From positions 558,001-622,000 of the forward strand of contig NZ_JAPPUY010000003.1 in assembly GCF_026712245.1 (NCBI RefSeq): DNA of 64,000 nt, given 5' to 3'. Position 1 is the first letter of the stretch; every line of letters starts with the position of its first letter. The notes under the pieces were generated by a model. It made no database searches. It saw only the letters and a program-made list of their open reading frames with translations, and was not told the DNA's origin. Shown piece by piece: positions 6,401-57,152 of this stretch. Position numbers and translations under genes: made by a program. The stretch is from Roseateles hydrophilus. GTDB lineage: Bacteria; Pseudomonadota; Gammaproteobacteria; Burkholderiales; Burkholderiaceae_C.

Positions 6401-6973
6401 CAGAACGCCGCCTACGCGGCCGAGTACAAGGCCTTCGTCGACAAGGTGCGCGCCGCCGAAGCCAAGCTGGGCGCCAAGACCACGCTGACCGAGGCCGTGG
6501 CCCGCTACCTGTTCAAGCTGATGGCCTACAAGGACGAGTACGAGGTGGCGCGCCTGCACACCGACGCGGCGTTCACGGCCAAGGTGGCCGGCATGTTCGA
6601 GGGCGACTACAAGCTGGTGCACCACCTCGCGCCGCCGCTGCTGTCCAAGACCAACGCCAACGGCGAGCTGGTGAAGCGGCCGTTCGGCGGCTGGGTGCGC
6701 CCGGCGTTCGCGCTGCTGGCCAAGATGAAGGGCCTGCGCGGCACGGCCTTTGACGTCTTCGGCCACACCGAGGAGCGCAAGATGGAGCGCCGCTGGATCG
6801 TGGACTACCGCGCCGGTGTCGAGAAGGCGCTGGCCGGCCTGAGTGCCGAGTCGCTGCCCACGGCTGTCGAGCTGGCCCGCGTGCCGGAAGACATCCGCGG
6901 CTACGGCCACGTGAAGGCCCGCCACGAGCACGCCGCCAAGGCCAAGTGGGACGCGCTGATCGCGAAGCTCTGA
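3431..6973 (+). CDS. Indolepyruvate ferredoxin oxidoreductase, fused subunits
   Basis: 1180 residues from the ATG at 3431, which has GGAG upstream; the frame is open further back but that part is not protein-like. The fused enzyme oxidatively decarboxylates aryl-pyruvates from transaminated aromatic amino acids to aryl-acetyl-CoA, passing electrons to ferredoxin. The thiamine diphosphate motif GDGTYFHSG lies near residue 528. A ferredoxin-like Cys cluster CEGCGDCSVQSNC is near 668-680 with more Cys at about 700-712 (CNKDYSCVKGFC). The C-terminal gamma-type domain starts near 757 (VVAGVGGTGVITIGQLLG). Length matches the large proteobacterial one-chain form. The adjacent Lrp-type regulator fits amino-acid control. 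Confidence 0.92.
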   Translation: MNAPLPEHILKSLQNVTLDDKYALDTGRAFMSGVQALVRLPMLQRTRDAMAGLNTAGFISGYRGSPLGTYDQALWQAKKHLAKQNIVFQPGVNEELGATAVWGTQQLDLFPEKAKFDGVFGLWYGKGPGVDRCIDVFKHANMAGTSKHGGVIAIAGDDHIAKSSTAAHQSDHVFKAVGFPTFFPSSVQDILDMGLHAFAMSRFSGLWAGMKTIQEIVESSASVSVDPDRVNIILPEDFVVPPGGLHIRWPDPPLEQEARMMNFKWYAALAYIRANRLNYNVIEGPNDRFGIITSGKAYNDTRQALHDLGLDDDTCRRIGIRLHKVNVVWPLEAQVAREFAKGLQEILVVEEKRQIIEYQVKEELYNWRSDVRPNVLGKFDAGDGEGGEWSVPNPSDHWLLRPQADLTPAIIARAITKRLKKLGVDSDIVARLDARMAVIDAKEASLKAEEKTAGGADRTPWFCSGCPHNTSTRVPEGSRAVGGIGCHYMVTWMPGRNTATFTQMGGEGVPWTGQAPFTNEKHIFSNLGDGTYFHSGSLAIRQSIASGVNITYKILYNDAVAMTGGQTVGERPEGHTVLQIMNSVISEGVKKLVIVTDDPAKYEGVALAPGVTVHHRDELDDIQRQFREIEGTTAIIYDQTCATEKRRRRKRGKMVDPAKRVVINELVCEGCGDCSVQSNCLSIEPLETDFGRKRQINQNTCNKDYSCVKGFCPSFVTVEGGELKKPKKEGRKSPFDTALGVLPLPVIPNAEEAWGIVVAGVGGTGVITIGQLLGMAAHLEGKGVITQDAAGLAQKGGATWSHIQIANTPEAIHCTKVGTAEARLVIACDAIVAANKATLAVMREGRTFVALNTHGSPTATLVNDANWSFPGAACEQAVAKAVGVEHFGSFDAEEVAVKLLGDSLYTNPLMLGFAWQRGRIPLSYDALMRAIELNGVQVDNNKAAFEWGRRCAHDLKAVQALYAAQAVIQLVKRQSLDEMVAKRVDFLTGYQNAAYAAEYKAFVDKVRAAEAKLGAKTTLTEAVARYLFKLMAYKDEYEVARLHTDAAFTAKVAGMFEGDYKLVHHLAPPLLSKTNANGELVKRPFGGWVRPAFALLAKMKGLRGTAFDVFGHTEERKMERRWIVDYRAGVEKALAGLSAESLPTAVELARVPEDIRGYGHVKARHEHAAKAKWDALIAKL

Positions 6974-43327: not shown

Positions 43328-44366
43328 CGTCGGACTCCCGGGGCACGCCCACGTAGCAGGTGGTGCCGTCCGCATCGCACCCGGCCATGTAGACCTGGCG
43401 CGGGTACTCGCCGGCCTGGATGTCTGCCGCCGAGCCGAACATGCGGCTGAAGGCGGTGCGGGTCTTGTCGGCGATGCCGTTGTGCACGAAGTAGCCATGC
43501 CCGCCCAGGCCCACCGGCGAGCCGGTGAAGCACACGTAGCGCACGATGCCGTTGCGCACCAGCGTGCCGCCGGGGTCGGTGCCCAGCTTGACCTGCTGGC
43601 CGTCGACGATGCAGGCGCCCAGCAGCACCGAGTCGCCCTCGTTGTACGTGATGAAGACCTGGCCCTTGGGCCGCAGCCGGCCCACCCAGTCGCCATGCCC
43701 CGCCGCGCGCACGCAGGGGGCGATGAGCGCGACGTTCTGCGCCGCGCCCAGCGCCTCGCGGGCCGCCTCGATCTCCAGCGTGTACTGCAGGTAGTGGTTG
43801 CCCAGGCTGTGAGCGGCCACGCTGAAGGGCTGGGCGTTCGCCTGCAGCCGTGCGATGGCCATCAGCCGCAGCAGCCGCGCCAGCGCGTCCACCGAGTCCT
43901 GCGCGTTGTTCTTGGCCTGGCGGTAGCGGCGCGCCTTCTGCACGATGGGGCCGGCGGTGCGGTTGCTGGCGCGCACGTCGGCGAGGTCGTCCTCGCTGCC
44001 CGCGGTGTCGGCCACGCCCGGCAGCGTGTGGCCATCGGGCAGCAGGCCTTCCGATGGCCAGGAGAAGCCGATCACCTCGACGCCATAGATGTCTCCCAGC
44101 AGCGCGCAGCGCTCGAAGCACCGCTGCGGCGTGTTGTTGTTGCCGTGGATGTACAGCAGCACCCGGCGCGAGCCCTCGAAGCGCCGCCGCAGCGCGCTGA
44201 CGATGGCGTCGTCGCTGGCCTCGCTGGCGAGTGCCTGCAGCGACCATGCGCCGCCTTGCTCGCGGGCATCGGCCATGCTCAGCAGGGACTGCGCCGGCTC
44301 GAAGGCGCCGCTGAAGGCGGTGTCGCTGCCGCTGCCGCTCACGCGGCGGTTGGTGATGATGAGCAT
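43320..44366 (-). CDS. Alpha/beta hydrolase (DUF900-like)
   Basis: 348 residues from ATG 44366 with GGAGG 4 nt upstream. The fold is marked by VLLYIHGNNNTPQRCFERC (oxyanion HG motif, near residue 75) and the nucleophile elbow AAHSLGNHYL (Ser near 170). VEVIGFSWPSEG and VALIAPCVRAAGHGDWVGRL are typical of the DUF900 esterase-like group. No signal peptide is seen, so it is probably cytosolic. The C-terminal region is coupled to a small lipoprotein gene; substrate unknown. Confidence 0.8.
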   Translation of the reverse strand: MLIITNRRVSGSGSDTAFSGAFEPAQSLLSMADAREQGGAWSLQALASEASDDAIVSALRRRFEGSRRVLLYIHGNNNTPQRCFERCALLGDIYGVEVIGFSWPSEGLLPDGHTLPGVADTAGSEDDLADVRASNRTAGPIVQKARRYRQAKNNAQDSVDALARLLRLMAIARLQANAQPFSVAAHSLGNHYLQYTLEIEAAREALGAAQNVALIAPCVRAAGHGDWVGRLRPKGQVFITYNEGDSVLLGACIVDGQQVKLGTDPGGTLVRNGIVRYVCFTGSPVGLGGHGYFVHNGIADKTRTAFSRMFGSAADIQAGEYPRQVYMAGCDADGTTCYVGVPRESDGG

Positions 44367-44442
44367 GGCGCCTCCGGCCTCGTTGCAAGGGGCCGCCAGT
44401 GTTGAGGGGATGCGCCTTGGCGGCATCCTCAGGCTTGCGGAG

Positions 44443-45354
44443 TCAGAACACCGACAGCCCGGTCTTCGCGACAAACAGCTCCAGCGCCTGGCGCCCCAGC
44501 AGCGAGTTGCCGGTGGGGTCCAGCGCGGGCGACCACACGCACAGCGTGAGGTGGTCGGGCACAACGGCCACGATGCCGCCGCCCACGCCGCTCTTGCAGG
44601 GCAGGCCGATGCGGTAGGCGAACTCGCCGGCTGCGTCGTAGGTGCCACAGGTCAGCATCAGCGCGTTCACGCGGCGCGCCAGCGCCGGGCTCAGCACCGG
44701 CGTGCCGGCCAGCGGGTGGCGGCCGTCGCGGCACAGATAGCCCGCCGCGCAGGCCAGCTGCTCGCAGGTCATGCGAATAGCGCACTGGTTGAAGTAGACG
44801 TCCAGCACGGTGGTGACGTCGTTGTCCAGCGTGCCGAACCCCTTCATCAGATTGGCCAGCGCGGTGTTGCGAAAGCCCGTGTCGTGCTCGGACTGCGCGA
44901 CCTCGGCATCGATGTGGATCGGCTCGCCGCACAGCCGCGACAGCAGCGCCAGCAGCTCGGCCTTGCCGTCGCCCAGCGTGACGAGGCGGTCTGCCACCGC
45001 GATGGCGCCGGCATTGATGAAGGGGTTGCGCGGGATGCCGCGCTCCGTCTCCAGCTGCACCAGCGAATTGAACGGGCTGCCCGAGGGCTCGCGGCCGATG
45101 CGCGCCCACAGCGCCTCGCCCAGCGCCTGGATGGCCAGCGTCAGCGAGAACACCTTGGACACGCTCTGGATGGAGAAGGGCACGGCGCTGTCGCCGGCCT
45201 GGGCGGTCTGGCCGTCGCAGGTGCGCAGCGCAATGCCGAACTGCGCGGGCGACACCCGGGCCAGCGCCGGGATGTAGCGGGCCACCTGGCCGCCCTGGCC
45301 CAGCAGCGGGCGCAATTCGGCGTTGATCTGGTCGAGCACGAGCTGGAAGTCCAT
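44443..45354 (-). CDS. glsA: Glutaminase A
   Basis: 303 residues, a full-length beta-lactamase-like glutaminase. Catalytic Ser and Lys lie in FSIQSVSKVFSLTLA (Ser64-x2-Lys67), with FINAGAIAVADRL, SEHDTGFRNTALANLMK and TCGTYDAAGEFAYRIGLPCKSGVGGGIVAVVP as family hallmarks. It hydrolyses L-glutamine to glutamate and ammonia in the cytoplasm. It is 32 bp from the divergent methyltransferase gene and leaves a 76-bp gap after its stop before the hydrolase gene; no terminator was noted. Confidence 0.93.
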   Translation of the reverse strand: MDFQLVLDQINAELRPLLGQGGQVARYIPALARVSPAQFGIALRTCDGQTAQAGDSAVPFSIQSVSKVFSLTLAIQALGEALWARIGREPSGSPFNSLVQLETERGIPRNPFINAGAIAVADRLVTLGDGKAELLALLSRLCGEPIHIDAEVAQSEHDTGFRNTALANLMKGFGTLDNDVTTVLDVYFNQCAIRMTCEQLACAAGYLCRDGRHPLAGTPVLSPALARRVNALMLTCGTYDAAGEFAYRIGLPCKSGVGGGIVAVVPDHLTLCVWSPALDPTGNSLLGRQALELFVAKTGLSVF

Positions 45355-45386
45355 GCGGGTGATTCTGACCTTGAGAATGGCGCCCC

Positions 45387-46280
45387 ATGCAAGCCCTGCT
45401 CGACGCCATCGCCGCCGCCCCCGACCTGCCCACCGACGCCTGCCGCCTGTTCCACGGCCGCGGCGGCCGCTTCCCCGGCTGCGAGCACCTGGCGCTGGAT
45501 GTGTTCCCGCCCGTGCTGCTGCTGACGTCCTTCAAGCCGCTGGATGAGGCCGCGCTGGCCGCCGTCGCCACCGCCTTGACGGCGCGCTTCGGCGCCGCGC
45601 TGAGCTGGGTCTACCAATGCCGCGGCGAGGGCGCCGAGACGCGGCTGATGGCCGGCGCCGTGCCCGAGCCGCACATCGTCACCGAGGCCGGCGCGCGCTA
45701 CCTCGTGCACCTGCTGCGCGGGCAGAACCACGGCCTGTTCCTGGACATGGCCGCCGGCCGGCGCTGGGTGCGCGAGCACGTGAAGCCCGGCGCCAAGGTG
45801 CTGAACCTGTTTGCCTACAGCTGCGCGTTCTCGGTCGTCGCGCTGCAGGCGGGCGCGGCCGAGGTGGTCAACGTGGACATGGCGTCCGGGGCGCTGAGCA
45901 CCGGCCGCACCAACCATGAGTTGAATGGCGTGAAGGCGGGCGCCAAGTTCCTGGCCCACGACATCTTCAACTCCTGGGGCAAGCTGACGCGCGGCGGGCC
46001 GTATGACCTGGTGATCTGCGACCCGCCCAGCTTCCAGAAGGGCAGCTTCGTCGCCACCAAGGACTACGCGCGGCTGGCCCGCCGTCTGCCCGCGCTGCTG
46101 GCGCCCGGCGGCCACGCGCTGCTGTGCCTGAACGCGCCGGAGCTGGGCGAGGCCTTCCTGCGCGACGTGGTGGCCGAGCACGCGCCTGAGCTGCAGTTCG
46201 TCGGCCGCGTGGCCAATCCGGCGGTGTTCGAAGACGTGTCGCCCGACCGCAGCCTGAAAGTGCTGGCCTACCGGTTGTAA
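45387..46280 (+). CDS. Class I SAM-dependent methyltransferase (RlmI-like fold)
   Basis: 297 residues. The Rossmann core (about 120-290) has the SAM motif VLNLFAYSCAFSVVALQAGAAEVVNVDMASGAL and the catalytic-type motif DLVICDPPSFQKGSF, as in the RlmI/RlmK-type 23S rRNA cytosine methyltransferase family. The N-terminal 110 residues carry LFHGRGGRFPGCEHLALDVFPP, typical of a subgroup of unknown target. The PPSF motif suggests RNA methylation of a base. No partner genes help define the target. Confidence 0.85.
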   Translation: MQALLDAIAAAPDLPTDACRLFHGRGGRFPGCEHLALDVFPPVLLLTSFKPLDEAALAAVATALTARFGAALSWVYQCRGEGAETRLMAGAVPEPHIVTEAGARYLVHLLRGQNHGLFLDMAAGRRWVREHVKPGAKVLNLFAYSCAFSVVALQAGAAEVVNVDMASGALSTGRTNHELNGVKAGAKFLAHDIFNSWGKLTRGGPYDLVICDPPSFQKGSFVATKDYARLARRLPALLAPGGHALLCLNAPELGEAFLRDVVAEHAPELQFVGRVANPAVFEDVSPDRSLKVLAYRL

Positions 46281-46311
46281 GAAGTTCCGCAGCGCCGTCA
46301 CTACCTGCTGC

Positions 46312-46833
46312 ATGACCGCTGATTCATCGCAGGACGCGCTGTACCGCCAGGCCCTCGCCGCCCACGGCGCCGAGCTGGCGCGCTGTTGCGCCGGCTACGA
46401 GCGCGACCCTGCATTGCGCCAGGAACTGCAGCAGGAGCTGCACCTGGCGCTGTGGCAGAGCCTGGCCACCTTCCGTGGCGATTGCTCGCTGCGCACCTGG
46501 GTCTACCGCGTGGCCCACAACGTCGGCGCGCGCCATGTGCAGCAGCACGCGGGCAAGGCGCCCATGCTGGCGCTCGACGAGATCGAGCACCTGCCCGACG
46601 AGCGCCTGGACCCCGGCCACACCGAGCGCCGGCTGGACCTGCAGCGCGTGATGGCGCTGGTGCACCGGCTCGCAGCACTGGACCGCGAGCTGATGCTGCT
46701 CTACCTGGAAGGCTTGGACGCCGCCAGCATCGCCGACATCACCGGCCTCTCGGCCCGCAACGTCGCCACCAAGATCCACCGCATCAAGGCGCTGCTGGCC
46801 CGCCAGCTCGCCACACCGAGGAGTTCGCCATGA
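46312..46833 (+). CDS. ECF-type RNA polymerase sigma factor
   Basis: 173 residues. Region 2 (about 25-75; QQELHLALWQSLATFRGDCSLRTWVYRVAHNVGARHVQ) and region 4 (about 115-165; LAALDRELMLLYLEGLDAASIADITGLSARNVATKIHRIKALL) are both present. It lacks an obvious Cys-based anti-sigma partner; the next gene encodes a membrane protein coupled by ATGA that may fulfil that role. A beta-lactamase-fold hydrolase follows, so the unit may respond to an envelope signal. Confidence 0.9.
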   Translation: MTADSSQDALYRQALAAHGAELARCCAGYERDPALRQELQQELHLALWQSLATFRGDCSLRTWVYRVAHNVGARHVQQHAGKAPMLALDEIEHLPDERLDPGHTERRLDLQRVMALVHRLAALDRELMLLYLEGLDAASIADITGLSARNVATKIHRIKALLARQLATPRSSP

Positions 46834-47396
46834 GCCTGGACGACGACGCTGGCCTGCTGTGGCGCGAACAGGCCGTGCCAGCGCTTCAGCCGCTGCCCGC
46901 CGATGAGCTCGCTGCGCAGTCCCGCCAGCTGCGCCACAAGCTAGGCCGCCGCAACCGCCGCGAGACCCTCGCGGGCGGGCTGGTGGCGGTGGTGTTCCTG
47001 GCCTACGCCTGGATCTTTCCGCACTGGCTGACCAAGCTCGGCGCGCTGCTCAATGTGGCCGGCGTGGGCCTCATGCTGTGGCAGCTGCGGCGCCGCGCGT
47101 CGGTGCAGCCGCTGCCCGAGGCGCTGGGCGCCAGCCTGCTGCAGTTCCACCGTGCCGAGCTGGCCCGTCAGCGCGACGCGCTGAGCTCGGTCTGGCGCTG
47201 GTATGTGGCACCGATCGTGCCGGGGCTGGTGCTGTTCCTGTGCGGCCGGCAGATCGAGAACGGCCACTGGCAGGCCTGGCCGTTTGTCATCACCGCGCTG
47301 GTGTTGGCTGGCGTCGTGTGGATCAACCGGCGCGCCGCGCGCCAGCTGCAGCGCGAGATCGACGCGCTGGATCAACTGACGAAGGAGGCCCCATGA
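46830..47396 (+). CDS. Membrane protein coupled to the sigma factor (possible anti-sigma)
   Basis: 188 residues starting MSLDDDAGLLWREQAVPALQ, a short cytoplasmic domain that could contact the sigma factor. Two clusters of two helices follow (about 48-82 and 125-165), the first with LAGGLVAVVFLAYAWIFP. No zinc HxxxCxxC anti-sigma motif is present, so this role rests on gene order and ATGA overlaps at both ends (46830-46833 and 47393-47396). Confidence 0.65.
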   Translation: MSLDDDAGLLWREQAVPALQPLPADELAAQSRQLRHKLGRRNRRETLAGGLVAVVFLAYAWIFPHWLTKLGALLNVAGVGLMLWQLRRRASVQPLPEALGASLLQFHRAELARQRDALSSVWRWYVAPIVPGLVLFLCGRQIENGHWQAWPFVITALVLAGVVWINRRAARQLQREIDALDQLTKEAP

Positions 47397-49015
47397 AGCG
47401 CATCCCTCTGGCCGGCGCGCTGCTGGCCCTGTCCCCGGGGCTGCAAGCCGCGGGCAGCGCCGCCGATGTCGAGCGCCTGCTGGCGGCCCGCTTCGACGGC
47501 GACCGCACCGGCGCCTGCGTGCAGGCCGCCGTCATCGAGGCTGGCAAGGTCTGGCGCGCCCGCCGCTGCGCCGGCACGCGCCCCGACGGCGCGCCGGCGG
47601 CGGATGCGGCCTTCGAGATCGGCTCGGTCAGCAAGACCATGACGGCCGCACTGGTGGCCGGGCTGGTGGACAGCGGCCGCTGGTCGCTGGACGACCCCAT
47701 TACCCGCCATCTGCCCGAGGGCACGACCGTGCCGCGCCAGGGCGAGCGGCAGATCCTCGTGCGCGACCTGGTGACCCACACCAGCGGCCTGCCCGCGCTG
47801 CCGGCCGACCTGCAGGGCGGCACCCAGGCCGACCCCTACGCCCGGCTCACCGAGGCCGGCCTGCTCGCGTCGCTGGGCAAGCAGGTGCTCCTGTTCCCCA
47901 CTGGCAGCCAGGCTGCGTACTCCAACTTCGGCATGATGGTGTTGTCGCTGGCCGTGGCCCGCAGCCTGGGCGGCGACCTGGAGGCCGCGCTGCGCGAGCA
48001 GCTGTTCCAGCCGCTGGGCATGGGCACGGCCCACGTTGCCAAGCCCCTGGGGGCCGCTGCCGCGCAAGGCCACCTGCCCGACGGCACACAGGCGCCGGGC
48101 TGGACGGTCGCCACCAACCTGGCCGGTTTCGGCATGGTCAAGGCCACGCTGGACGACATGGTGGCCTACGCCCGCGGCCAGCTGGGTGAGGGCCCGCCGG
48201 CCTTGGCGGCGCAGCTGCGCCGCACCCAGCAACCGCTGGCCCAGGGCTATGGCATGAACTGGATGCTGCGCCGCGTGCAGGGGCGCGATCTGGTCATGCA
48301 TGAAGGCGGCACCGGCGGCTTCTCGTCGCTCGTGGCGCTGGAGCCGGGCGCGCAGCGGGCGGTCGTCGTGCTGGCCGACACGGCGCTGGCCGACCTGGGC
48401 GGCCTGGGCGACATCGGCTTCGCGCTGCTGGGCCTGGACATGCGGCTGCAGCCACGCCGCCCCGTGGAGCCGCCGGCCGCGCTGCGCCAGGCGCTGGCCG
48501 GGGACTACGCGTTGGGCCCCTTGCGTCTGACGATCTGGGAGCGCGACGGCCGGCTGCTGGCCCAGGTGCCGGGTCAGTCCGCCTTCGAGCTGCGCCATGA
48601 CAGCCGAGGCGACTTCTACCCGCTGGGCTTCTCCGCGCTGCTGCGCCCCGAGCCGCCCGGGGCCGGCCAGCCCGTGGCGCGCTTCACGTGGCAGCAGGGC
48701 GGCGGCGCGGTGCTGGCCCGCCGCGTGGGGCGGGTGGAGGCGCCGCCCACCATCACCCACCCGGCCTGGCGCGACTGGGCCGGCGAGTTCCAGCTGGCGC
48801 CGCAGTTCAGCCTCAAGGTGTTCGAGCGCGACGGCCAACTGATGGTGCAGGGCAGCGGTCAGCCCGCCATCGCGGCCGAGGTGACGGGGCCGGACCGCAT
48901 CGAGATCAAGACGGTGGGCGCGGTCGTCGAGTTTGAGCGTGATGCCGCAGGCAAGGTCACGGCGGCCGTGCTGCTGCAGGGCGGGCAGCGGCTGCGCGGG
49001 AGCAGGGTGCCTTAG
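47393..49015 (+). CDS. Serine hydrolase of the beta-lactamase/class C PBP type
   Basis: 540 residues from ATG 47393, with GGAGG 5 nt upstream. A signal peptide (KRIPLAGALLALSPGLQAAG) precedes the catalytic domain with the SxxK motif SVSK (Ser78 to Lys81), the YxN motif YSN (176-178) and HEGG (His303), matching AmpC-like and esterase-type serine hydrolases. The last 170 residues form a beta-rich extension with two similar blocks (LAGDYALGPLRLTIWERDGRLLAQVPGQ and WAGEFQLAPQFSLKVFERDGQLMVQGSGQ). It acts in the periplasm on a peptide or ester. It is the final gene of the sigma unit. Confidence 0.88.
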   Translation: MKRIPLAGALLALSPGLQAAGSAADVERLLAARFDGDRTGACVQAAVIEAGKVWRARRCAGTRPDGAPAADAAFEIGSVSKTMTAALVAGLVDSGRWSLDDPITRHLPEGTTVPRQGERQILVRDLVTHTSGLPALPADLQGGTQADPYARLTEAGLLASLGKQVLLFPTGSQAAYSNFGMMVLSLAVARSLGGDLEAALREQLFQPLGMGTAHVAKPLGAAAAQGHLPDGTQAPGWTVATNLAGFGMVKATLDDMVAYARGQLGEGPPALAAQLRRTQQPLAQGYGMNWMLRRVQGRDLVMHEGGTGGFSSLVALEPGAQRAVVVLADTALADLGGLGDIGFALLGLDMRLQPRRPVEPPAALRQALAGDYALGPLRLTIWERDGRLLAQVPGQSAFELRHDSRGDFYPLGFSALLRPEPPGAGQPVARFTWQQGGGAVLARRVGRVEAPPTITHPAWRDWAGEFQLAPQFSLKVFERDGQLMVQGSGQPAIAAEVTGPDRIEIKTVGAVVEFERDAAGKVTAAVLLQGGQRLRGSRVP

Positions 49016-49023
49016 TGTTGCTG

Positions 49024-49080
49024 TCTCAACGTGAAAGTGAGCGGACGCCCAAGGCCGTCCGATCCAATGGCAGCTTGAGG
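49024..49080 (-). repeat. attC site of cassette 3 (diverged)
   Basis: A 57-bp site in leftward reading ending in GTTGAGA, with inner arms GGACGGCC and GGGCGTCC (7 of 8 pairs). Its 5' end reads CCTCAAG, an imperfect complement of the cassette 3 core GTTGACG, so it has decayed or come from another family. It is the outermost site, next to the host hydrolase gene. Confidence 0.6.
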
Positions 49081-49090
49081 CGCAATTCGC

Positions 49091-49402
49091 TCATCCGCGA
49101 GGAATCAGGTCGACTACGGCCCAGCGGCCATCGTTCTTCCTGGTCACAACAGTGAAGCAAGCTGATTCCGGGCCACAGAGAACAAACAACGCCTGGCCTG
49201 AGAAGTCGCCATCTTTGAATTCAAACGCAGCAAGTCTCTTCAGTGCCACGGACTCGGCTTGGACGCCTAGCTTCGTCGCCACTGCGACCCGACCAATCTC
49301 GTATGGCGCAGAGTTCAAGATCCAGACCTGCCCCAGCGCGACGATCGCAACGAACATTGCGGCAACGAAAGTCAAAGTCCCGAAGAACTTCTTCTTTGTC
49401 AT
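49091..49402 (-). CDS. Cassette 3: small membrane-anchored protein of unknown function
   Basis: 103 residues from ATG 49402 (MTKKKFFGTLTFVAAMFVAIVALGQ), with one helix at about 6-26 and a short positively charged N-terminus, so the rest is probably periplasmic. The soluble part (PYEIGRVAVATKLGVQAESVALKRLAAFEFKDGDFSGQALFVLCGPESACFTVVTRKNDGRWAVVDLIP) has two Cys in CGPESAC and the shape of a small alpha-beta domain. No known family recognised. An upstream ATG at 49432 is less likely because the hydrophobic N-terminus then begins late. Confidence 0.65.
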   Translation of the reverse strand: MTKKKFFGTLTFVAAMFVAIVALGQVWILNSAPYEIGRVAVATKLGVQAESVALKRLAAFEFKDGDFSGQALFVLCGPESACFTVVTRKNDGRWAVVDLIPRG

Positions 49403-49436
49403 GCCGGCCCATGGTCGAGTAAACGCTGGCATTGCG

Positions 49437-49493
49437 CGTCAACGTCGTAGTTCAGCGGGCGCCGAAGGCGTCCGCTGCAAAGAGTGGTTAAGC
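49437..49493 (-). repeat. attC site of cassette 2
   Basis: 57 bp. The leftward reading starts with GCTTAAC, a perfect RYYYAAC box that includes the gene's TAA stop, and ends in GTTGACG. The inner part GCAGCGGACGCC...GGCGCCCGCTG forms a stem with one mismatch and a TTC loop, and it matches the attC of cassette 1 over about 39 of 40 bases. Confidence 0.8.
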
Positions 49494-50072
49494 GGCCGGT
49501 GCAAGACGATGCGATTGCAGCTTGGCCAACAGGAACGGGAGTTCCGATAGGGGAAACATTGCACCCTTGTTAAGGGCTCGCCCTCCCGCAATGACATTGA
49601 CTATGTACCGCAGATCGGGACAGTAGTTGAGATAAAGGCTCGTGCTACCAGGGGGATCGAAAGTCACACCCACCGAAAGCACCTCATATTTGCACTGCCC
49701 AACTTTGGTTCGTTGCCTACTGTGAACCTTGATGGCTGTCTTTTCGACTCTTTGAACCTTCCCCGAGAAGGCGACTTCCATTTCGTATTCGTGCTCATCG
49801 CCCACCTCAAGAGGAAAGAGGGTCGCAAGATCTGTCAGCGGCCTACGTGTGATCTCGCTGCCGGTGCTACCACTTTGTAGTGTGATAAGGCCCATGTAGA
49901 GGATTTCATCATCAGCATTACCGGACTTCCGATAGCGAGTTACCTTTGTGAGGTCGTTCTCCATGAATCGGACCTCGGCCAGCCCAGCGGGCAGATGGCT
50001 CACCACGAAGCCGTCAGCAGTTCCCTCGTACGAGGGGCAAAAGAGGGCCGTGGATGTGTCTTGATTGGCCAT
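49488..50072 (-). CDS. Cassette 2: unknown protein (194 residues)
   Basis: MANQDTSTALFCPSYEGTADG begins a mostly beta-rich soluble protein without signal peptide or membrane helix. Notable segments are VGDEHEYEMEVAFSGKVQRVEKTAIKVHSRQRTKVGQCKYEVLSVGVTFDPPG and LYLNYCPDLRYIVNVIAGGRALNKG. No family is recognised. Its TAA stop is part of the attC GCTTAAC box, so gene and recombination site are interlocked. The composition is lower in GC than the chromosome. It may be an immunity or effector-type protein, but nothing in the sequence shows this. Confidence 0.7.
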   Translation of the reverse strand: MANQDTSTALFCPSYEGTADGFVVSHLPAGLAEVRFMENDLTKVTRYRKSGNADDEILYMGLITLQSGSTGSEITRRPLTDLATLFPLEVGDEHEYEMEVAFSGKVQRVEKTAIKVHSRQRTKVGQCKYEVLSVGVTFDPPGSTSLYLNYCPDLRYIVNVIAGGRALNKGAMFPLSELPFLLAKLQSHRLAPAA

Positions 50073-50103
50073 TGGTTTATTGGGACTAGGTAACTTCGGA
50101 GCC

Positions 50104-50160
50104 GCTTAACGTCGTAGATCAGCGGGCGCCGAAGGCGTCCGCTGCAGCGACCAGTTATGG
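50104..50160 (-). repeat. attC site of cassette 1
   Basis: 57 bp. The leftward reading starts with CCATAAC and ends in GTTAAGC, a good GTTRRRY box. The core CAGCGGACGCC-TTC-GGCGCCCGCTG folds with one mismatch. The end of the site carries the core of cassette 2. Confidence 0.8.
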
Positions 50161-50184
50161 CGCGACCCAGTTGCAGCACAGTTC

Positions 50185-50559
50185 CTAGTCTTCATTCCAA
50201 TTGATCCAGTCCGGCTTTGCTCCGGCGTTCTCAAAAAAGTACGCCATGGCTTTGTAGCACTGCTCAATGTCGATGCACCAGGAGCGCGGATATTCGTCAA
50301 CCTGCCCGTTGCACAGCCGGAAGGTCGCCGTGCCTGGACGATGGACAGACGAACGGGAAGAGAAGCCGCTATCGCCTTCTTGCCGCAGGTACATGAGCCA
50401 CGCGTCATCGTCGTTCCTCAGCATGCAAAGAGACCGCCCGTTGGGCGCGAACGCCCATAGCTCGAATTCCTTGGCCTGCTCAACGCGATCAAGCAAACGC
50501 CCCACTTCCTCCGGGGACGACGGGTGCAACTCCTCTCCGTTGAAACTGAAGGCGATCAT
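50185..50559 (-). CDS. Cassette 1: Imm1-like immunity protein
   Basis: 124 residues. SPEEVGRLLDRVEQ near residue 15 and the C-terminal block FRLCNGQVDEYPRSWCIDIEQCYKAMAYFFENAGAKPDWINW follow the pattern of Imm1 family immunity proteins: a Gly-x-x-x-E-[YF]-P turn, a helix and a final Pro-x-x-x-x-W. Imm1 proteins neutralise polymorphic toxins, often deaminases. No toxin gene is nearby, so it would act as an orphan immunity gene against foreign toxins. The match is from memory of the family pattern. Only about 8 nt separate the cassette core from the ATG, so it may be translated leaderless or from attI. Confidence 0.6.
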   Translation of the reverse strand: MIAFSFNGEELHPSSPEEVGRLLDRVEQAKEFELWAFAPNGRSLCMLRNDDDAWLMYLRQEGDSGFSSRSSVHRPGTATFRLCNGQVDEYPRSWCIDIEQCYKAMAYFFENAGAKPDWINWNED

Positions 50560-50566
50560 CTAAGCG

Positions 50567-50677
50567 CCATAACGTGTTTTCGGGAGACAGCCGACGCCGC
50601 CTAAGCAGGCGGGCTGCGCCCTAAAAACGAAGCCGCACCCGCGCGCAAGTGCTTGATTCATCGAAGCCCTCCTTGGC
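50567..50677 (-). other. attI region of the integron
   Basis: The first cassette begins at GTTATGG (50573-50567 on the leftward strand), so the attI recombination site lies just beyond, towards intI. The stretch holds an imperfect palindrome centred near 50615 (CAGCC-c-GCCT-gctt-AGGC...CGGCTG), which could be an integrase-binding arm or the remnant of another attC. A cassette promoter Pc would be expected here or in intI but is not assigned. Confidence 0.55.
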
Positions 50678-51820
50678 TTGGCTGTAGTTTTATACAGTAT
50701 TGAATTTCCAGCAAAAGCGGCGCGCCGTTACAAGTTCTCGACGAGGCTGGGCGCCCGCTTGGAGGCCGATGATGCAGCCCTGTTGCCTGCGTTGCCACCT
50801 CGCAAACACCTGCGGCCCAAACGCGCGGTTGAACTGCCGCCATTGCGCTCAACGCGGGTGCTGGACCAACTGCGTGAACGCCTCCGGCTGATGCACTACA
50901 GCCTGCGCACGGAGGAGGTGTATGCCTACTGGGTCAAGGCTTTCATCCGCTTCCACGGTCTGCGGCACCCAGCTGAATTGGGTGGGCCGGAGGTGGAAGC
51001 CTTTCTGACCCATCTGGCGGACGCACGCTCGGTGGCCCCCTCGACGCACAACCAGGCGCTGTCGGCGCTGCTGTTCTTCTATGGCAAGGTGCTGGGCCTC
51101 GATCTGCCGTGGCTGAAGGAGATCGGTCATCCGCAGCAGCATCGCAGGCTGCCGGTGGTATTGACCGTGGAGGAGGTGCGCCAGGTGCTTGGGGGGCTTG
51201 ACGGTGAGCATGGGCTGCTGGCACGGCTGCTCTACGGTACCGGCCTGCGCATCAGCGAGGCACTTCAGTTGCGGGTCAAGGACATCGACTTCGGCCTGCA
51301 TGCCCTGATCGTGCGCGAAGGCAAGGGCGCGAAAGACCGTGTTGTCATGCTGCCCCAGTCGCTCGTGGCCGACTTGCGCGAACAACTGGCCAGGGCCCGC
51401 CTCGTATGGGCCGGCGATGTGGAAGCTGGCGTCGCAGGCGTCGAACTGCCTCACGCACTGGAGCGCAAATACCCCCGCATGGGCGCGAGCTGGCCCTGGT
51501 TCTGGGTGTTCCCGCAAGACCACCATGCCACCGACCCGCGCAGCGGCGTCGTGCGCCGCCATCATCTGTATGACCAGACCTTCCAGCGCGCGTTCAAGCG
51601 TGCCGTTCAGGCCGCCGGCATCGCCAAGCCGGCCACGCCGCACACGTTGCGGCACTGCTTCGCGACGCACCTGCTGCAGTCAGGTAACGACATCCGCACC
51701 GTGCAGGAGCTGCTCGGCCATTCAGATGTGGCGACCACGATGATCTACACGCATGTGCTCAAGCTGGGCGGTGGCGCGGTGCGCTCGCCGCTGGACGCGC
51801 TGGGCATGCCAGCCGCCTGA
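50678..51820 (+). CDS. intI: Integron integrase (IntI-type tyrosine recombinase)
   Basis: The open frame has 380 residues. [33 protein letters not shown] is the IntI N-terminal SAM-like domain. The catalytic set is present: Arg in [43 protein letters not shown]. The IntI-specific extra patch is there too ([40 protein letters not shown]). The first in-frame start, TTG at 50678, lies upstream of a LexA box, so the true start is probably further in; the domain needs a start before about 50850, and TTG 50759, TTG 50783 and GTG codons are candidates. No ATG occurs before 50894. Confidence 0.9.
50682..50697 (+). promoter_or_regulatory. LexA (SOS) box at the intI promoter
   Basis: CTGT (50682-50685), 8 bp, ACAG (50694-50697) is a perfect LexA operator frame, and TACAGT (50693-50698) can serve as the -10. 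LexA control of integron integrases is established in other integrons. Confidence 0.8.
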
Positions 51821-51867
51821 CGCAGGGCGCCAACCGGCTGGGCAAGGCCCGCGACTGACGGGCCCCG

Positions 51868-53319
51868 TCAGGCCAGCTTGCTCAGGTCGGCCAGCAACTT
51901 CTCGCGGCTCCTGGCGTCGCTCACCGCTTCGCCCAGCCGGTTGAAGAACACGGCCCGGCTGTCCGTGTCGCTGGCGGCGCGCTTGACGAGCACCTTGGCG
52001 ATCGGCCCCACGTGCTGGGCCAGCAGGGGCACGGCCTTGTCCAGCACGGCATCGGTCAGCGGGCCGCCGATCGTGGTGGCACCGGCAGAGGAGCCCGCCG
52101 AGCCCCCGGTGGCGCGCGAGCCGGCCGTGGGTGGCGTGCCGGCGGTGCCGCCGGCCGTCCTCGTGCCGCCGCCGGTGACCTGGCTGGCCTGGCCCAGGAA
52201 GAGGTCGCGGGCGCGCGGGTCGGCCACCTGCTCGGCCAGCCGCGCATACAACTCGCCGAGCTCGTGGCACTCGCGGGCTGCGCGCCGCACCAGCACGCTG
52301 GCCAGCGGGCCGACGTGTTTGGCCAGCGTCTGCTCGGCCTGCAGCAGAACGGCCTTGTCCCAGTGCGAAGGCGGCGGCGCGCCGCTGGACGCGCTGGACA
52401 CCGAGGGCGGCGCCAGCGTGGGCGTCAGCGGCGAACGTGCCGGGCGGGGCGGCGCCATCAGCAGCGTCTGCTCCCAGGCGGAGTCGTCCACGCTGCTGCC
52501 CACGGCGCTGAGCAGCGCCTGGCGGAACTCGAAGGTGGTTGCGAAGCGGTCGGTGGGGCGCTTGGCCAGCGCGCGCGCGACGATGGCGTCGAACCAGCCC
52601 GGTCGGTCGGCCCCTTCGACGATGGAGGGCGGCTCGGGCGCCTCGTTGACGACCTTGTACATCAGCGCCTCGGTCGTGCCCGTGAAGGGCGCGCGGCCGG
52701 TGAGCAGCTGGTAGAGCACGACGCCGGCACCGTAGATGTCCACGCGCCGGTCCATGGGCTTGCCCAGGAACTGCTCGGGCGCCATGTGGCTGGGCGTGCC
52801 CACCATGTAGTGGGTCTGCGTGAGGTGCTGGGTCTCGATGCGCGCGATGCCGAAGTCGGCCACCTTGAGCCGGCCGCTGCCCATCATGATGATGTTGGCG
52901 GGCTTGATGTCGCGGTGCCACACGCCCTTGTCGTGCGCATGGCCCAGCGCGCCGAGCAGCTGGCTCATGATGCCGACGATGTCGGTGTCGGTGAAGCGCA
53001 CCTTGGCCGTCAGGTAGCTCGCCAGCGAGCGGCCCTCGACGAACTCCATCGCGATGTAGGCCACCTGCTGGTCGCGGCCGTAGTCGTACACGGCGACGAT
53101 GCCCGGGTGGCCCAGCCGGCCGGCGGCCTGCGCCTCGTTGCGAAAGCGCGAGGCCGGCGCGCCGGGGCTGTCGTCCTCGACGTCCAGGCCGGTGCGGATG
53201 GTCTTGAGCGCGACGGTGCGCTGGATGTCGGGGTCGAAGCCCTTGTAGACGACGCCCATCGCGCCCTCACCGAGCACCTCGGTGATGCGGTACTTGCCCA
53301 GCTGCGTGGGATGCGTCAT
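51868..53319 (-). CDS. Ser/Thr protein kinase with tandem C-terminal repeat
   Basis: 483 residues. The kinase domain (about 9-270) is complete: Gly loop LGEGAMGVVYKG, Lys39, Glu62, HRDIKPAN with Asp137, DFG at 155-157 and APE at 180-182. After a Pro/Ser/Ala-rich linker the tail has two related blocks: about 325-390 (LLQAEQTLAKHVGPLASVLVRRAARECHELGELYARLAEQVAD) and about 420-483 (VLDKAVPLLAQHVGPIAKVLVKRAASDTDSRAVFFNRLGEAVSD). Only the linker is membrane-neutral; no transmembrane helix is seen, so it is cytosolic. The heme-sensor gene lies 106 nt upstream on the same strand. Confidence 0.9.
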   Translation of the reverse strand: MTHPTQLGKYRITEVLGEGAMGVVYKGFDPDIQRTVALKTIRTGLDVEDDSPGAPASRFRNEAQAAGRLGHPGIVAVYDYGRDQQVAYIAMEFVEGRSLASYLTAKVRFTDTDIVGIMSQLLGALGHAHDKGVWHRDIKPANIIMMGSGRLKVADFGIARIETQHLTQTHYMVGTPSHMAPEQFLGKPMDRRVDIYGAGVVLYQLLTGRAPFTGTTEALMYKVVNEAPEPPSIVEGADRPGWFDAIVARALAKRPTDRFATTFEFRQALLSAVGSSVDDSAWEQTLLMAPPRPARSPLTPTLAPPSVSSASSGAPPPSHWDKAVLLQAEQTLAKHVGPLASVLVRRAARECHELGELYARLAEQVADPRARDLFLGQASQVTGGGTRTAGGTAGTPPTAGSRATGGSAGSSAGATTIGGPLTDAVLDKAVPLLAQHVGPIAKVLVKRAASDTDSRAVFFNRLGEAVSDARSREKLLADLSKLA

Positions 53320-53425
53320 GTCAGCCCCTCGGCCCGCGGGTACGCGGCCCGGCCCCCCAGGGGGGCGCGGTCCGGCTTGGGAGCGGCCAGGCGCTCGGCC
53401 CGCAGGGGTGGGGTTGGCGACGGCA

Positions 53426-54298
53426 TCAGGCGTCCAGCAGCTTCATGGCCTGCACGACCGAGGCGCGCATGCGGGAGAACGAGTCGGACAGCGTGGCGAT
53501 CTCGTCGCGGCCGCTGGTCTTGAATTCGGGCGCGTCCAGGTCGCCCTGGCTGACGCGGTCGGCCAGCGCCGACAGCCGCGTGACCGGGCGCACCACCAGC
53601 AGCCACACCATCAGGTTGAGCACGACGCCGACGACGACGAACACGCCCACCAGCGCGGTGATGAAGACCTTGAACACGTTGTCCGCGCGCTGCAGCGGCA
53701 CGCCCAGCGGCACGGAGACGATCTGCGCGCCGATGACTTCGTTGAGGTTCCAGCCGAAGCCGTTGGCCGGGCCGTACTTGGCCACCATGGTGGCGGGCGC
53801 GGCTTCCACGCTGCTGTGGCAGGCCAGGCAGGCCGGGTCGGTGATGCGCAGCGGGCGGGCGATGTAGAGCGCCGGGCCGGCGGGCGTGTCGCGCATGCCC
53901 ACGGTTTCCTTCAGGTCGGCCGCGCTGCGGAACTGGCCCACGATGTCGGCCTCCCAGCTGGTGGCGCGGTCGCGCGGGTTGGTGGGGTTGAGCGCGGCTT
54001 CCTTGTAGGCGAACTCGGGGTGCTTGGCCAGCAGCGTGTTCAGCACTTCGGTCGCGGCGTAGCTGGGCACGGTCTGCGGCAGGAACTCGTGCGCCATCTG
54101 CGCGGTCAGCAGCGGCTTGACCTGGGTGTTGGTGTAGTTGCGCACCGCCAGCGCCTTCTCCATCAGCATCTGCGCGCTGTTGACGACCTCCTGCTTGGCG
54201 TTGTCCTGCAGCAGCTGGCGGGCGATGTAGCCGCTCAGCGCAATGCCCAGGCTCATCACCAGCAGATAGACCAGATTGAACTTGACCAGCAGTTTCAT
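53426..54298 (-). CDS. Tll0287-like (DUF3365) heme-c sensor with HAMP domain
   Basis: 290 residues. A signal-anchor helix (LVYLLVMSLGIALSGYIA) is followed by a periplasmic domain (about 35-200) with one c-type heme motif CLACH (Cys157, Cys160, His161), typical of the Tll0287-like sensory family. A second helix (about 208-235) leads to a HAMP domain (RPVTRLSALADRVSQGDLDAPEF) and a short coiled end. No kinase or methyl-accepting output domain follows, so signalling probably goes to a partner, and the Ser/Thr kinase downstream is the obvious candidate. It may sense redox or NO/CO. Confidence 0.85.
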   Translation of the reverse strand: MKLLVKFNLVYLLVMSLGIALSGYIARQLLQDNAKQEVVNSAQMLMEKALAVRNYTNTQVKPLLTAQMAHEFLPQTVPSYAATEVLNTLLAKHPEFAYKEAALNPTNPRDRATSWEADIVGQFRSAADLKETVGMRDTPAGPALYIARPLRITDPACLACHSSVEAAPATMVAKYGPANGFGWNLNEVIGAQIVSVPLGVPLQRADNVFKVFITALVGVFVVVGVVLNLMVWLLVVRPVTRLSALADRVSQGDLDAPEFKTSGRDEIATLSDSFSRMRASVVQAMKLLDA

Positions 54299-54488
54299 GT
54301 CGCTCCCCGAGAGGGCGGCAATGTTAGGGCCCTGGGGTGTCGGCGGCGGTGGGGATATGCACCGGCGCTCGGTGTTGACGAGTCCCAGAAAAACAGGTCA
54401 AGCGCCCGGCGGCGGCGCGGGTGCGGCCGGGCCGGGTGGACAGCCCGGCGTCAGCGCGCAGGCGGGTGTGGCGCCATACTGCCGCCCC

Positions 54489-55157
54489 ATGCGCATCCTG
54501 CTCGTCGAGGACGACGACCAACTCGTCGAAACCACCGCCCGCGCGCTGCGCTCGCAGGGCTGGGTGGTGGACTGCACCGCCCGTGGCGAGCCCGTGCCGC
54601 GCTCGCTGCGCGAGGACGCCTACGACCTGCTCATCCTGGACATCGGCCTGGCCGGCATCGACGGCTTCGAGACGCTGCGCCGCGTGCGGGCCGAGGACCT
54701 GCCGGTGCCGGTGCTCATCCTGACTGCGCGCGACGCCGTGGAGGACCGCGTGCGCGGCCTGGAGGGCGGGGCGGACGACTACCTCGTCAAGCCCTTCGCG
54801 CTGACCGAGCTCATCGCCCGTGCCCGCGCGCTGGTGCGGCGCAGCCAGGCGCGCACCAGCAACCAGCTGCAGCTGGCGCGGCTGCGGGTGGACATGGAGG
54901 CCCGCCGCGCCTTCATCGACGGCGAGCCGCTGCCGCTGTCGGCCCGCGAATGGGATGTGCTGGGTTTCCTGATGACGCGCGCCGGCAAGGTGGTGCCCAA
55001 GGAGCACATCGCCATGGCCAGCAATGCCTGGGAGCAGGGCGTCAGCGACAACGCCATCGAGGTCTGCCTGTCGCGGCTGCGCGCCAAGATCGAGCCTGCC
55101 GGCGTGCAGCTGCGCACGGTGCGCGGGCTGGGCTACCTGCTCGAAGAAGTCGCCTGA
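54489..55157 (+). CDS. OmpR-family response regulator (QseB/TctD-like)
   Basis: 222 residues from ATG 54489. Receiver domain with DD at 8-9, phosphoacceptor Asp51 (LLILDIGLAG) and Lys101 (DDYLVKPF). C-terminal winged helix (about 130-220; LPLSAREWDVLGFLMTRAGKVVPKEHIAM and NAIEVCLSRLRAKIEPAGVQLRTVRGLGYLLEE). The histidine kinase follows with a 1-bp overlap (TGATG). It resembles QseB/TctD regulators controlling transport or adaptation; targets are not visible. Confidence 0.92.
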   Translation: MRILLVEDDDQLVETTARALRSQGWVVDCTARGEPVPRSLREDAYDLLILDIGLAGIDGFETLRRVRAEDLPVPVLILTARDAVEDRVRGLEGGADDYLVKPFALTELIARARALVRRSQARTSNQLQLARLRVDMEARRAFIDGEPLPLSAREWDVLGFLMTRAGKVVPKEHIAMASNAWEQGVSDNAIEVCLSRLRAKIEPAGVQLRTVRGLGYLLEEVA

Positions 55158-56530
55158 TGGCGGCCGCCCGGCCGCGCGCCAGCCTGCAGCGCCGGCTGTT
55201 CGGCTGGCTGATGCTGCCGCTGCTGGTGGTGCTGCCGCTGCTGGGCTGGGCGCTGTACCAGCAGGTGTGGCGCAGTGCGCAGGGCTGGCTGGACGACGGC
55301 CTGGAAGACACCGCACTGACGCTGGCCGGCCAGATCGACCGGCGCGGCGGCACGCTGCGCGTGGATGTCAGCGCCACGATGGACCGCGTGCTGCGCTTTG
55401 ACCGGCAGGACGATGTGTTCTACGTCGTGCTCGGCCCGGCCGGCGAGGTGCTGCAGGGCGATGCCGGCCTGGTGGACGTGCAGCCCCGGCCCCAGCCGCT
55501 GCCGGCCGGCAGCACCGTGTACAGCAATGTGCGCCTGCGTGAGCGGGCGCTGCGCCTGGTGCAGCTGGGCCGGGCCTGCGGCGAGGGTGCCTGCCAGGTG
55601 CTGGTGGCCGAGACGCTGCACAAGCGCGACACGCTGCGCCGCGAGATCGGCGCCCATGTGGTGATGAACGGCCTGGGCCTGGCGCTGCTGCTGGCGCTGG
55701 CAGGCTGGTGGGCGGTGCGCCGGGGCTTGTTGCCGCTGACCGGCCTGAGCGCCGAGGTGGAGCGCCGCGACCTGCACCGCCTGTCGCCGCTGACGGCCAC
55801 GCTGCCGCGCGAGCTGGTGCCCTTGCAGGCCGCGTTCAACCGGTTGTTCGAGCGGCTGTCGCTGGCGGCCGGCACGCAGCGCGAGTTCCTGGCCGATGCG
55901 GCCCACCAGCTGCGCACGCCGCTGACCTCGCTGCAGACCGAGATCGAGCTGGCCATGCTGGAGCCGCACGACGCCCGCATGGACCCGCTGCTGGAGCGGC
56001 TGCGCCAGCGCGTCGTGCGCAGCGCGCGGCTGGCGCAGCAGCTGCTGTCGCTGGCGCGCACCGAGGAGCGCAGCGTGGACCTCGGCCAGCCGCTGGACCT
56101 GCGCGACGTGGCCACCGAAAGCGGGCAGGACTGGGCCCACCGCGCGCTGCCGGCGGGCATGGACCTGGGCTTCGAACTGGCGCCCGCGCCGGCACGGGGC
56201 CATGCCCTGCTGCTGCGCGAGGCGCTGGAGAACCTCATTCACAACGCCGTCAGCTATGCCGGCGCGGGCGCGCGCATCACGGTGCGCTGCGGCAGCACGG
56301 GCGCCAGGACTTGGATGGAGGTCGAGGACAACGGCCCCGGCATCCCGCCCGCCGAACGCCCGGCGGCCATGCAGCGCTTCCGCCGCGGCGGCCAGGCCAG
56401 CGGCACCGGCAGCGGCCTGGGCCTGGCGATTGCGGCCGACATCGCGGCCCGCCACGGCGGCCGGCTGGACCTGCTGGACACCCACGGTGGCCCCGGCCTG
56501 CGCGCGCGCATCAGCCTGCCGGCGGCCTGA
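55157..56530 (+). CDS. Two-component sensor histidine kinase (QseC/TctE-like)
   Basis: 457 residues. Two helices (about 15-36 and 170-190) flank a periplasmic sensor of about 130 residues with one Cys pair (ACGEGAC). HAMP is weak. The H-box reads EFLADAAHQLRTPLTSLQTEIELAM, and ATP motifs LIHNAVSYAGAGA, VEDNGPGIPPAE and GSGLGLAIAADIAARHGG are complete, so it should phosphorylate the upstream regulator. Sensor sequence is not typical of a known ligand class. Confidence 0.9.
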   Translation: MAAARPRASLQRRLFGWLMLPLLVVLPLLGWALYQQVWRSAQGWLDDGLEDTALTLAGQIDRRGGTLRVDVSATMDRVLRFDRQDDVFYVVLGPAGEVLQGDAGLVDVQPRPQPLPAGSTVYSNVRLRERALRLVQLGRACGEGACQVLVAETLHKRDTLRREIGAHVVMNGLGLALLLALAGWWAVRRGLLPLTGLSAEVERRDLHRLSPLTATLPRELVPLQAAFNRLFERLSLAAGTQREFLADAAHQLRTPLTSLQTEIELAMLEPHDARMDPLLERLRQRVVRSARLAQQLLSLARTEERSVDLGQPLDLRDVATESGQDWAHRALPAGMDLGFELAPAPARGHALLLREALENLIHNAVSYAGAGARITVRCGSTGARTWMEVEDNGPGIPPAERPAAMQRFRRGGQASGTGSGLGLAIAADIAARHGGRLDLLDTHGGPGLRARISLPAA

Positions 56531-56597
56531 ATTGGCGGGTCCGCGCTGCGCTATTCGGCGCCAGGGCCGGCCGGGGCCGCCCTAGCATGGGGTTCTC

Positions 56598-57152
56598 ATG
56601 CACCGTCCCGCCTTTCGCCCCGCGCTGCTGCTGGCCCTGCTGCTGGCCGGCTGCGGCGCGCCCAGCCAGCACCTGCCCATGACCGTCACGCCGGTCGAGG
56701 CGCTGCAGATCCGCGGCTGGGTGCCGCAGGCGCTGCGCGGCAGCGTGGGCGTGGCGGCCGTGCAGGGCGGCCAGGAGACCGGGCGCTGGTGGGGTTCCAA
56801 GGTCAGTGCGGTCGCGCTGCAACTGGCGCTGGAGGAATCGCTGCTGGGCGTGGGCATGCGGGCGCTGGCGCCCGAGCCGGCCCCGCGCTACGAGCTCAAG
56901 GCCGAGCTGGTGCAGCTGGACCAGCCGCTGGTGCCCGCGCTCGGCGTCACCGTCGGCACGGCCGTGCGCTACACGCTGACCGACACGGCCGCCGGCCGCG
57001 TGCTCTACCAGCGCCGCATCGCCAACACCGAGGACGCCGGCTTCACCGAGGCCATGCTGTCGCCGCCCGAGCGGCTGCGCATCGCCAACGAGCGCGCGCT
57101 GCGCGCCAACATCGCGCTGCTGCTGCGCGACCTCGTCACGCTGCAGCCCTGA
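56598..57152 (+). CDS. Outer-membrane lipoprotein of unknown function
   Basis: 184 residues. The signal peptide ends LLLAGC, giving a lipidated Cys near residue 19. The mature domain contains YELKAELVQLDQPLVPALGVTVGTAVRYTLTDTAAGRVLYQRRIANTEDAGFTEAML and ends with a helical RLRIANERALRANIALLLRDLV; it recalls small lipoproteins that assist transport or assembly but I cannot place it in a family. Starts 67 nt after the kinase, same strand. Function unknown. Confidence 0.7.
   Translation: MHRPAFRPALLLALLLAGCGAPSQHLPMTVTPVEALQIRGWVPQALRGSVGVAAVQGGQETGRWWGSKVSAVALQLALEESLLGVGMRALAPEPAPRYELKAELVQLDQPLVPALGVTVGTAVRYTLTDTAAGRVLYQRRIANTEDAGFTEAMLSPPERLRIANERALRANIALLLRDLVTLQP

Follow-up and report, generated by a model that had tools for sequence, protein, structure and literature searches.

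The window, by which we mean the whole 64,000-nucleotide stretch of DNA analysed here, sits in a 744-kb contig of the 4.77-Mb genome of a betaproteobacterium of the Roseateles/Pelomonas group and carries a small chromosomal integron with three cassettes. The integrase gene (intI) is an open frame of intact length at 50678..51820 on the plus strand. To its left, and reading leftward on the minus strand, lie cassette 1 (463 bp, 50110..50572), cassette 2 (667 bp, 49443..50109) and cassette 3 (413 bp, 49030..49442), with their 57-bp sites attC1 (50104..50160), attC2 (49437..49493) and attC3 (49024..49080), all on the minus strand. The attI region (50573..50675, minus strand, right-hand limit approximate) adjoins intI, and an alignment of 22 sequences shows it conserved up to the junction where cassette 1 is joined at the core. 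This is the arrangement that the first-pass annotation of the DNA had proposed, and the family models bear it out: the intI frame matched the integron integrase models TIGR02249 with 473.1 bits (cut-off 265) and NF011946 with 550.6 bits (cut-off 435), and it has a solved structural relative in IntI4 (entry 2a3v, 282 bits). The best match by score in our genome collection came from Roseateles cellulosilyticus P8 (80% identity, residues 1-376), and two Burkholderiales MAGs matched at 84% (residues 36-376) and 83% (residues 38-375).

The attC sites were scored with a covariance model made from 32 sites of relatives that we chose ourselves (up to 72 bp, none from the window, repeats of the same locus dropped by hand), with a structure that was set by hand and towards which the pair counts are therefore biased. 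On the expected bottom strand, here the plus strand, attC1, attC2 and attC3 scored 55.1, 56.3 and 33.1 bits, while the opposite strand at the three places gave at most 11.2 bits and the next best score elsewhere in the 64 kb was 14.4 bits. The three sites behave as bottom-strand hairpins in a single orientation and so pass the fold and model check put forward earlier, attC3 only weakly. Its score falls below the 44.8-70.2 bits that full-length attC sites of relatives, which mostly served as seeds for the model, reach on their proper strand, and a motif finder that recovered attC1 and attC2 missed it; its R'' box ends in AAG instead of AAC. Folding of the bottom strands gave z-scores against shuffles of -3.1, -3.0 and -1.9. 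The top strands reach nearly the same stability (-2.4, -2.8 and -1.5), so orientation is taken from the covariance model and not from folding alone; the motif finder, too, gives the two strands similar scores. A scan of the window with Rfam at gathering thresholds gave no matches, and no tRNA was found in it.

The cassette ends tell how the array was probably put together. When each cassette start is compared with the end of the attC that belongs to it, 10 of 12 positions match in all three cases, GTT included. In cassettes 1 and 2 the complementarity of the cores is perfect over 10 bp, more than the 7 bp claimed for them before, and in cassette 3, which had been left out of that claim and also fits, both mismatches fall inside the R'' box. 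As a control, own start and end pairs from seven arrays agreed at 7 or more of the 9 free positions in 19 of 24 cases, versus 26 of 696 pairs that do not belong together (for the six arrays other than that of the window, the first cassettes were left out). These matches support the earlier proposal that the cassettes were inserted as circles. IntI would recombine circular cassettes into attI at 50573 through the folded bottom strand of the 57-bp attC, and three such events would have built the array; the attI junction, the attC sites and the matching ends are seen in the sequence, and from them we infer the reaction. That the locus is instead an isolated tyrosine recombinase with hairpins next to it by chance, as one might suspect from attC3 taken by itself (33.1 bits, fold z-score -1.9), is next to impossible given the matches to IntI-specific models, two sites above 55 bits of a type found in relatives, the correct order and orientation of the parts and the agreement of the cassette ends.

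Cassette contents

The open reading frame of cassette 1 (50185-50559, 124 aa) codes for a predicted member of the Imm1 immunity family, by a match to PF14430 over residues 8-122 (39.8 bits, gathering threshold 22.4). This family assignment is the only functional hint among the cassettes. A relative with 54% identity, in whose vicinity no attC was found, occurs in one other of the 299 family genomes, which sample a larger group evenly, and the single PHROGs match of the cassette proteins, a weak one, was also to cassette 1 (E 0.062). A literature search found nothing on Imm1 in integron gene cassettes, and in the part of PMC5361080 consulted immunity genes are not presented as cassettes of integrons.

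In cassette 2 the frame (49488-50072, 194 aa) has a stop codon that overlaps the R'' box of attC2. Its protein matched no family in profile searches, PADLOC or PHROGs, lacked relatives in the other 298 genomes of the family sample (among the 299 it is found in its own genome only) and gave no match against plasmids. Cassette 3 (frame 49091-49432, 113 aa) codes for a protein with a hydrophobic stretch near the N-terminus, noted by eye, and matched no family above cut-off. Relatives of it were found in two other genomes of the 299; one of them (L191, 43% identity) lies among five attC matches in a row, with scores of 26.0-48.0 bits, and the other has none nearby. PADLOC had no match for any of the cassette proteins, and the family searches agree with the first-pass annotation that none of the three cassettes is a resistance gene.

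Genomic place and attC sites elsewhere

The array ends 8 bp from a host gene for a serine hydrolase of the beta-lactamase family (PF00144, 47405..49015, plus strand, start approximate), exactly as annotated before, with the stop of the hydrolase at 49015 and attC3 starting at 49024. On the other side is a host gene for a protein kinase (PF00069, 51868..53319, minus strand) that is conserved in 17 of the 20 genomes of the genus, counting its own. The kinase and a methyltransferase gene (PF10672) are convergent and 12-4562 bp apart in all 16 genus relatives compared. Neither an integrase nor an attC site was found in this gap in any of the 16 (in L141 a contig end interrupts the stretch); the comparison with sister strains, which had been put forward as a check, therefore finds no integron at the spot and no distant strain with the same order of cassettes. 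In the window the gap also contains the hydrolase, along with genes for a sigma factor and a small membrane protein. In four other genomes of the 20 of the genus the hydrolase is found elsewhere, and in two of these four (L158, L159) the sigma-factor and membrane-protein genes are beside it.

The gap itself (46280-51868 in the window; L140-L155 in the 16 genus relatives) differs in content and measures 12-4562 bp in those relatives, and can be described as a variable spot. Site-specific insertion of the integron into the gap was considered and rejected, because lengths and frames differ among the 16 relatives and no integron boundary can be defined.

Sister species usually, though not necessarily, share the place of a chromosomal integron. 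The absence from the spot in all 16 relatives, and a downstream flank that is common to none of the 20 other integron loci (in a comparison of 21 loci with flanks of up to 6 kb, some of them shorter, and the array-end flanks left out; two pairs of loci do share theirs), are what might be expected of a mobile integron newly arrived on a transposon or plasmid. Against such an arrival, which we hold to be very improbable indeed, are the chromosomal genes on both sides within a 744-kb contig, the best integrase matches, which come from the same genus or order, attC sites of the type of those relatives, and the ORFs of 44000-57000, which on inspection by eye included no transposon gene. The long contig, the conserved neighbour genes and the lineage-type attC sites support the chromosomal integron of the first-pass annotation.

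More attC matches of the covariance model are present on two other contigs of the same genome. One of them carries a cluster without integrase (G000:C8:390600-393226, L186:4601-7227) with sites of 54.3, 31.7 and 27.9 bits that also holds the frame of an IS110-family transposase (PF02371 and PF01548). The other has attC-like sites of 27.0 to 44.5 bits at G000:C10:140578-140646 and G000:C10:164322-169073 (L187, L188), and no integrase match was found on it. A 55-residue remnant of an integron integrase, 82% identical to the IntI of the window, was located at G000:C7:50697-50861 (L002, L114) adjoining a large frame that by eye resembles RHS; repeats of at least 30 bp were absent from the region around the remnant (L114), and the covariance model gave no attC there.

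Across the genus, attC sites turn up oftener than integrases. Scoring 150 candidates per genome, with E-values that are rough, the covariance model found attC matches at E up to 0.01 in 20 of 20 genomes, versus integrase matches at E up to 1e-60 in 9 of 20 (own genome included in both counts). Decay of the integrase is common here, as 4 of the 12 intI matches of the genus, own one included, contain a stop. At three places in another genome (G002:C17:4353-4508, 6337-6492 and 4817-5027) adjacent attC matches of equal score start 99 or 154 bp apart, which suggests cassettes so short that they could hold hardly any coding sequence or none.

The integrase gene and its control region

The regions upstream of intI in 22 sequences, that of the window among them, align over attI, a LexA-type box and onward as far as the gene start. 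In the window the presumed promoter Pint (50678..50706, plus strand) consists of a -35 element TTGGCT (50678-50683), a 17-bp spacer and a -10 element TGAATT (50701-50706), and between both elements is a LexA-type (SOS) box CTGT-N8-ACAG at 50682..50697, also on the plus strand. The box has the exact form, as in 16 of the 23 relatives with a LexA box, and seeing it there we infer that transcription of intI would be under LexA/SOS control. The promoter elements are less usual: the -35 is TTGACT in 18 of these 23 relatives and the -10 is TAAATT in 17, and neither TTGGCT nor TGAATT occurs in any of the 23. A scan of 48950-51950 for the sigma-70 consensus found no promoter, neither Pc nor Pint. Promoter, LexA box and leader overlap the first ~30 codons of the intI frame, which are probably not coding, and the family models start to match only at codon 51-61.

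The start of the gene is where the window departs from its relatives. A GGAGG at 50761-50765 is followed by ATG codons at 50769 and 50772 (50761..50774 in all, plus strand), and both are out of the intI frame; the frame that they open runs for 40 or 39 codons to a stop at 50891. Of the 23 relatives with a LexA box, 22 have an in-frame ATG, L046 being the single exception; the window has none. Some of the 23 carry stops deeper in intI, so that not all are working genes, and L051, which has in-frame ATGs, was omitted from them for lack of a recognisable LexA box. By alignment and hand count, 23 bases separate the paired ATGs from the next conserved block in the window versus 24 in L034, L036 and L165. 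With this one base fewer just past the start codons, ribosomes at the good start site would yield a 40-codon out-of-frame peptide. The alternatives in frame are TTG codons only (50759, 50783 and 50792), and by a simple spacing test none of them is well spaced behind a ribosome-binding site. A programmed frameshift at this start was dropped as a candidate, no slippery sequence being seen by eye.

Out-of-frame ATGs behind the ribosome-binding site together with promoter variants seen in none of 23 relatives indicate that the integrase is probably made poorly or not at all. Our preferred reading, to which we give good if far from complete confidence, is that the integrase of this three-cassette integron was probably silenced at its start and that its array is likely frozen. 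With little or no integrase the array may by now have stopped changing while the remaining frame is still intact. The hint of an active integron in the first-pass annotation becomes doubtful for the same two reasons, the start ATGs and the promoter variants.

The one-base difference near the start may also be an assembly error. We regard as unlikely, although deserving of appreciable weight, that the integron is fully working, either with a start that is truly in frame or with an in-frame TTG that gives enough integrase. The long intact intI frame under strong constraint, the exact LexA-type box and the good attC1 and attC2 speak for a working integron; the shift at the start speaks against it, and the two promoter variants would in addition have to be harmless. 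Moreover, the genes of the kinase, a HAMP-domain protein, the methyltransferase and a glutaminase align with relatives over their full or almost full length in one frame, so that these four neighbours give no sign of general indel noise. A further reading, that the 40-codon frame is a retained upstream decoy and that a weak in-frame TTG gives integrase at a very low level on top of the SOS control, we find quite improbable.

Past the leader the rest of the reading frame is unbroken, and dN/dS of the intI core was 0.063-0.155 against eight relatives, a blunt test with dS at 1.09-3.10, near or beyond saturation; the coding core is still constrained, and its lack of relaxation counts against silencing. 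This constraint suggests that the loss of the start, if real, is recent or that some product is still made, and the integrase of the window has probably been caught soon after losing its start.

Comparison with known integrons

The closest comparison is with the integrons of R. cellulosilyticus P8 (L034, L041), whose integrases are 80% and 72% identical to that of the window and which have 57-bp attC sites of the same type and a comparable layout of attI and LexA box. Unlike the window, they are at other places in the genome and have the integrase ATG in frame, and one of the arrays has 14 attC sites by the motif finder (L170, a longer stretch around L041). That attC types are taxon-specific is established knowledge in the part of PMC8352920 consulted. 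A full-text search of the open-licence literature for integrons together with Roseateles found no paper on this group, to which the window adds a small integron with 57-bp attC sites.

The mobile integrons of clinical hosts have an arrangement of attI and LexA box similar to that of the window. Their integrases (for example that of L097, plasmid p8538-NDM-1) belong to the same family; however, they are only ~73% identical to the one found here, which, in contrast to them, is accompanied by attC sites of the genus type and by no resistance gene in its three cassettes. The clinical-host integrases compared at ~73% are those that we take to be class 1, and a clinical class 1 integron was accordingly rejected as a candidate, a near-identical integrase being expected of it.

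A better parallel to the state of the integrase is offered by chromosomal integrons with decayed integrases. Within the excerpts used, integrase inactivation is widespread in several Xanthomonas species (PMC12444791), and in a survey (PMC3108266) the integrases that look inactivated are put at 43% in one place and at 46% in another. The cases in these excerpts resemble the window in the inactivated or doubtful intI of a chromosomal array and in having attC clusters that lack an integrase at other places of the genome. The Xanthomonas integron, according to the same excerpt of PMC12444791, stays beside ilvD with few exceptions, whereas the place of the window integron is common to no relative compared. 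The locus is a real, ordinary integron of an already known kind.
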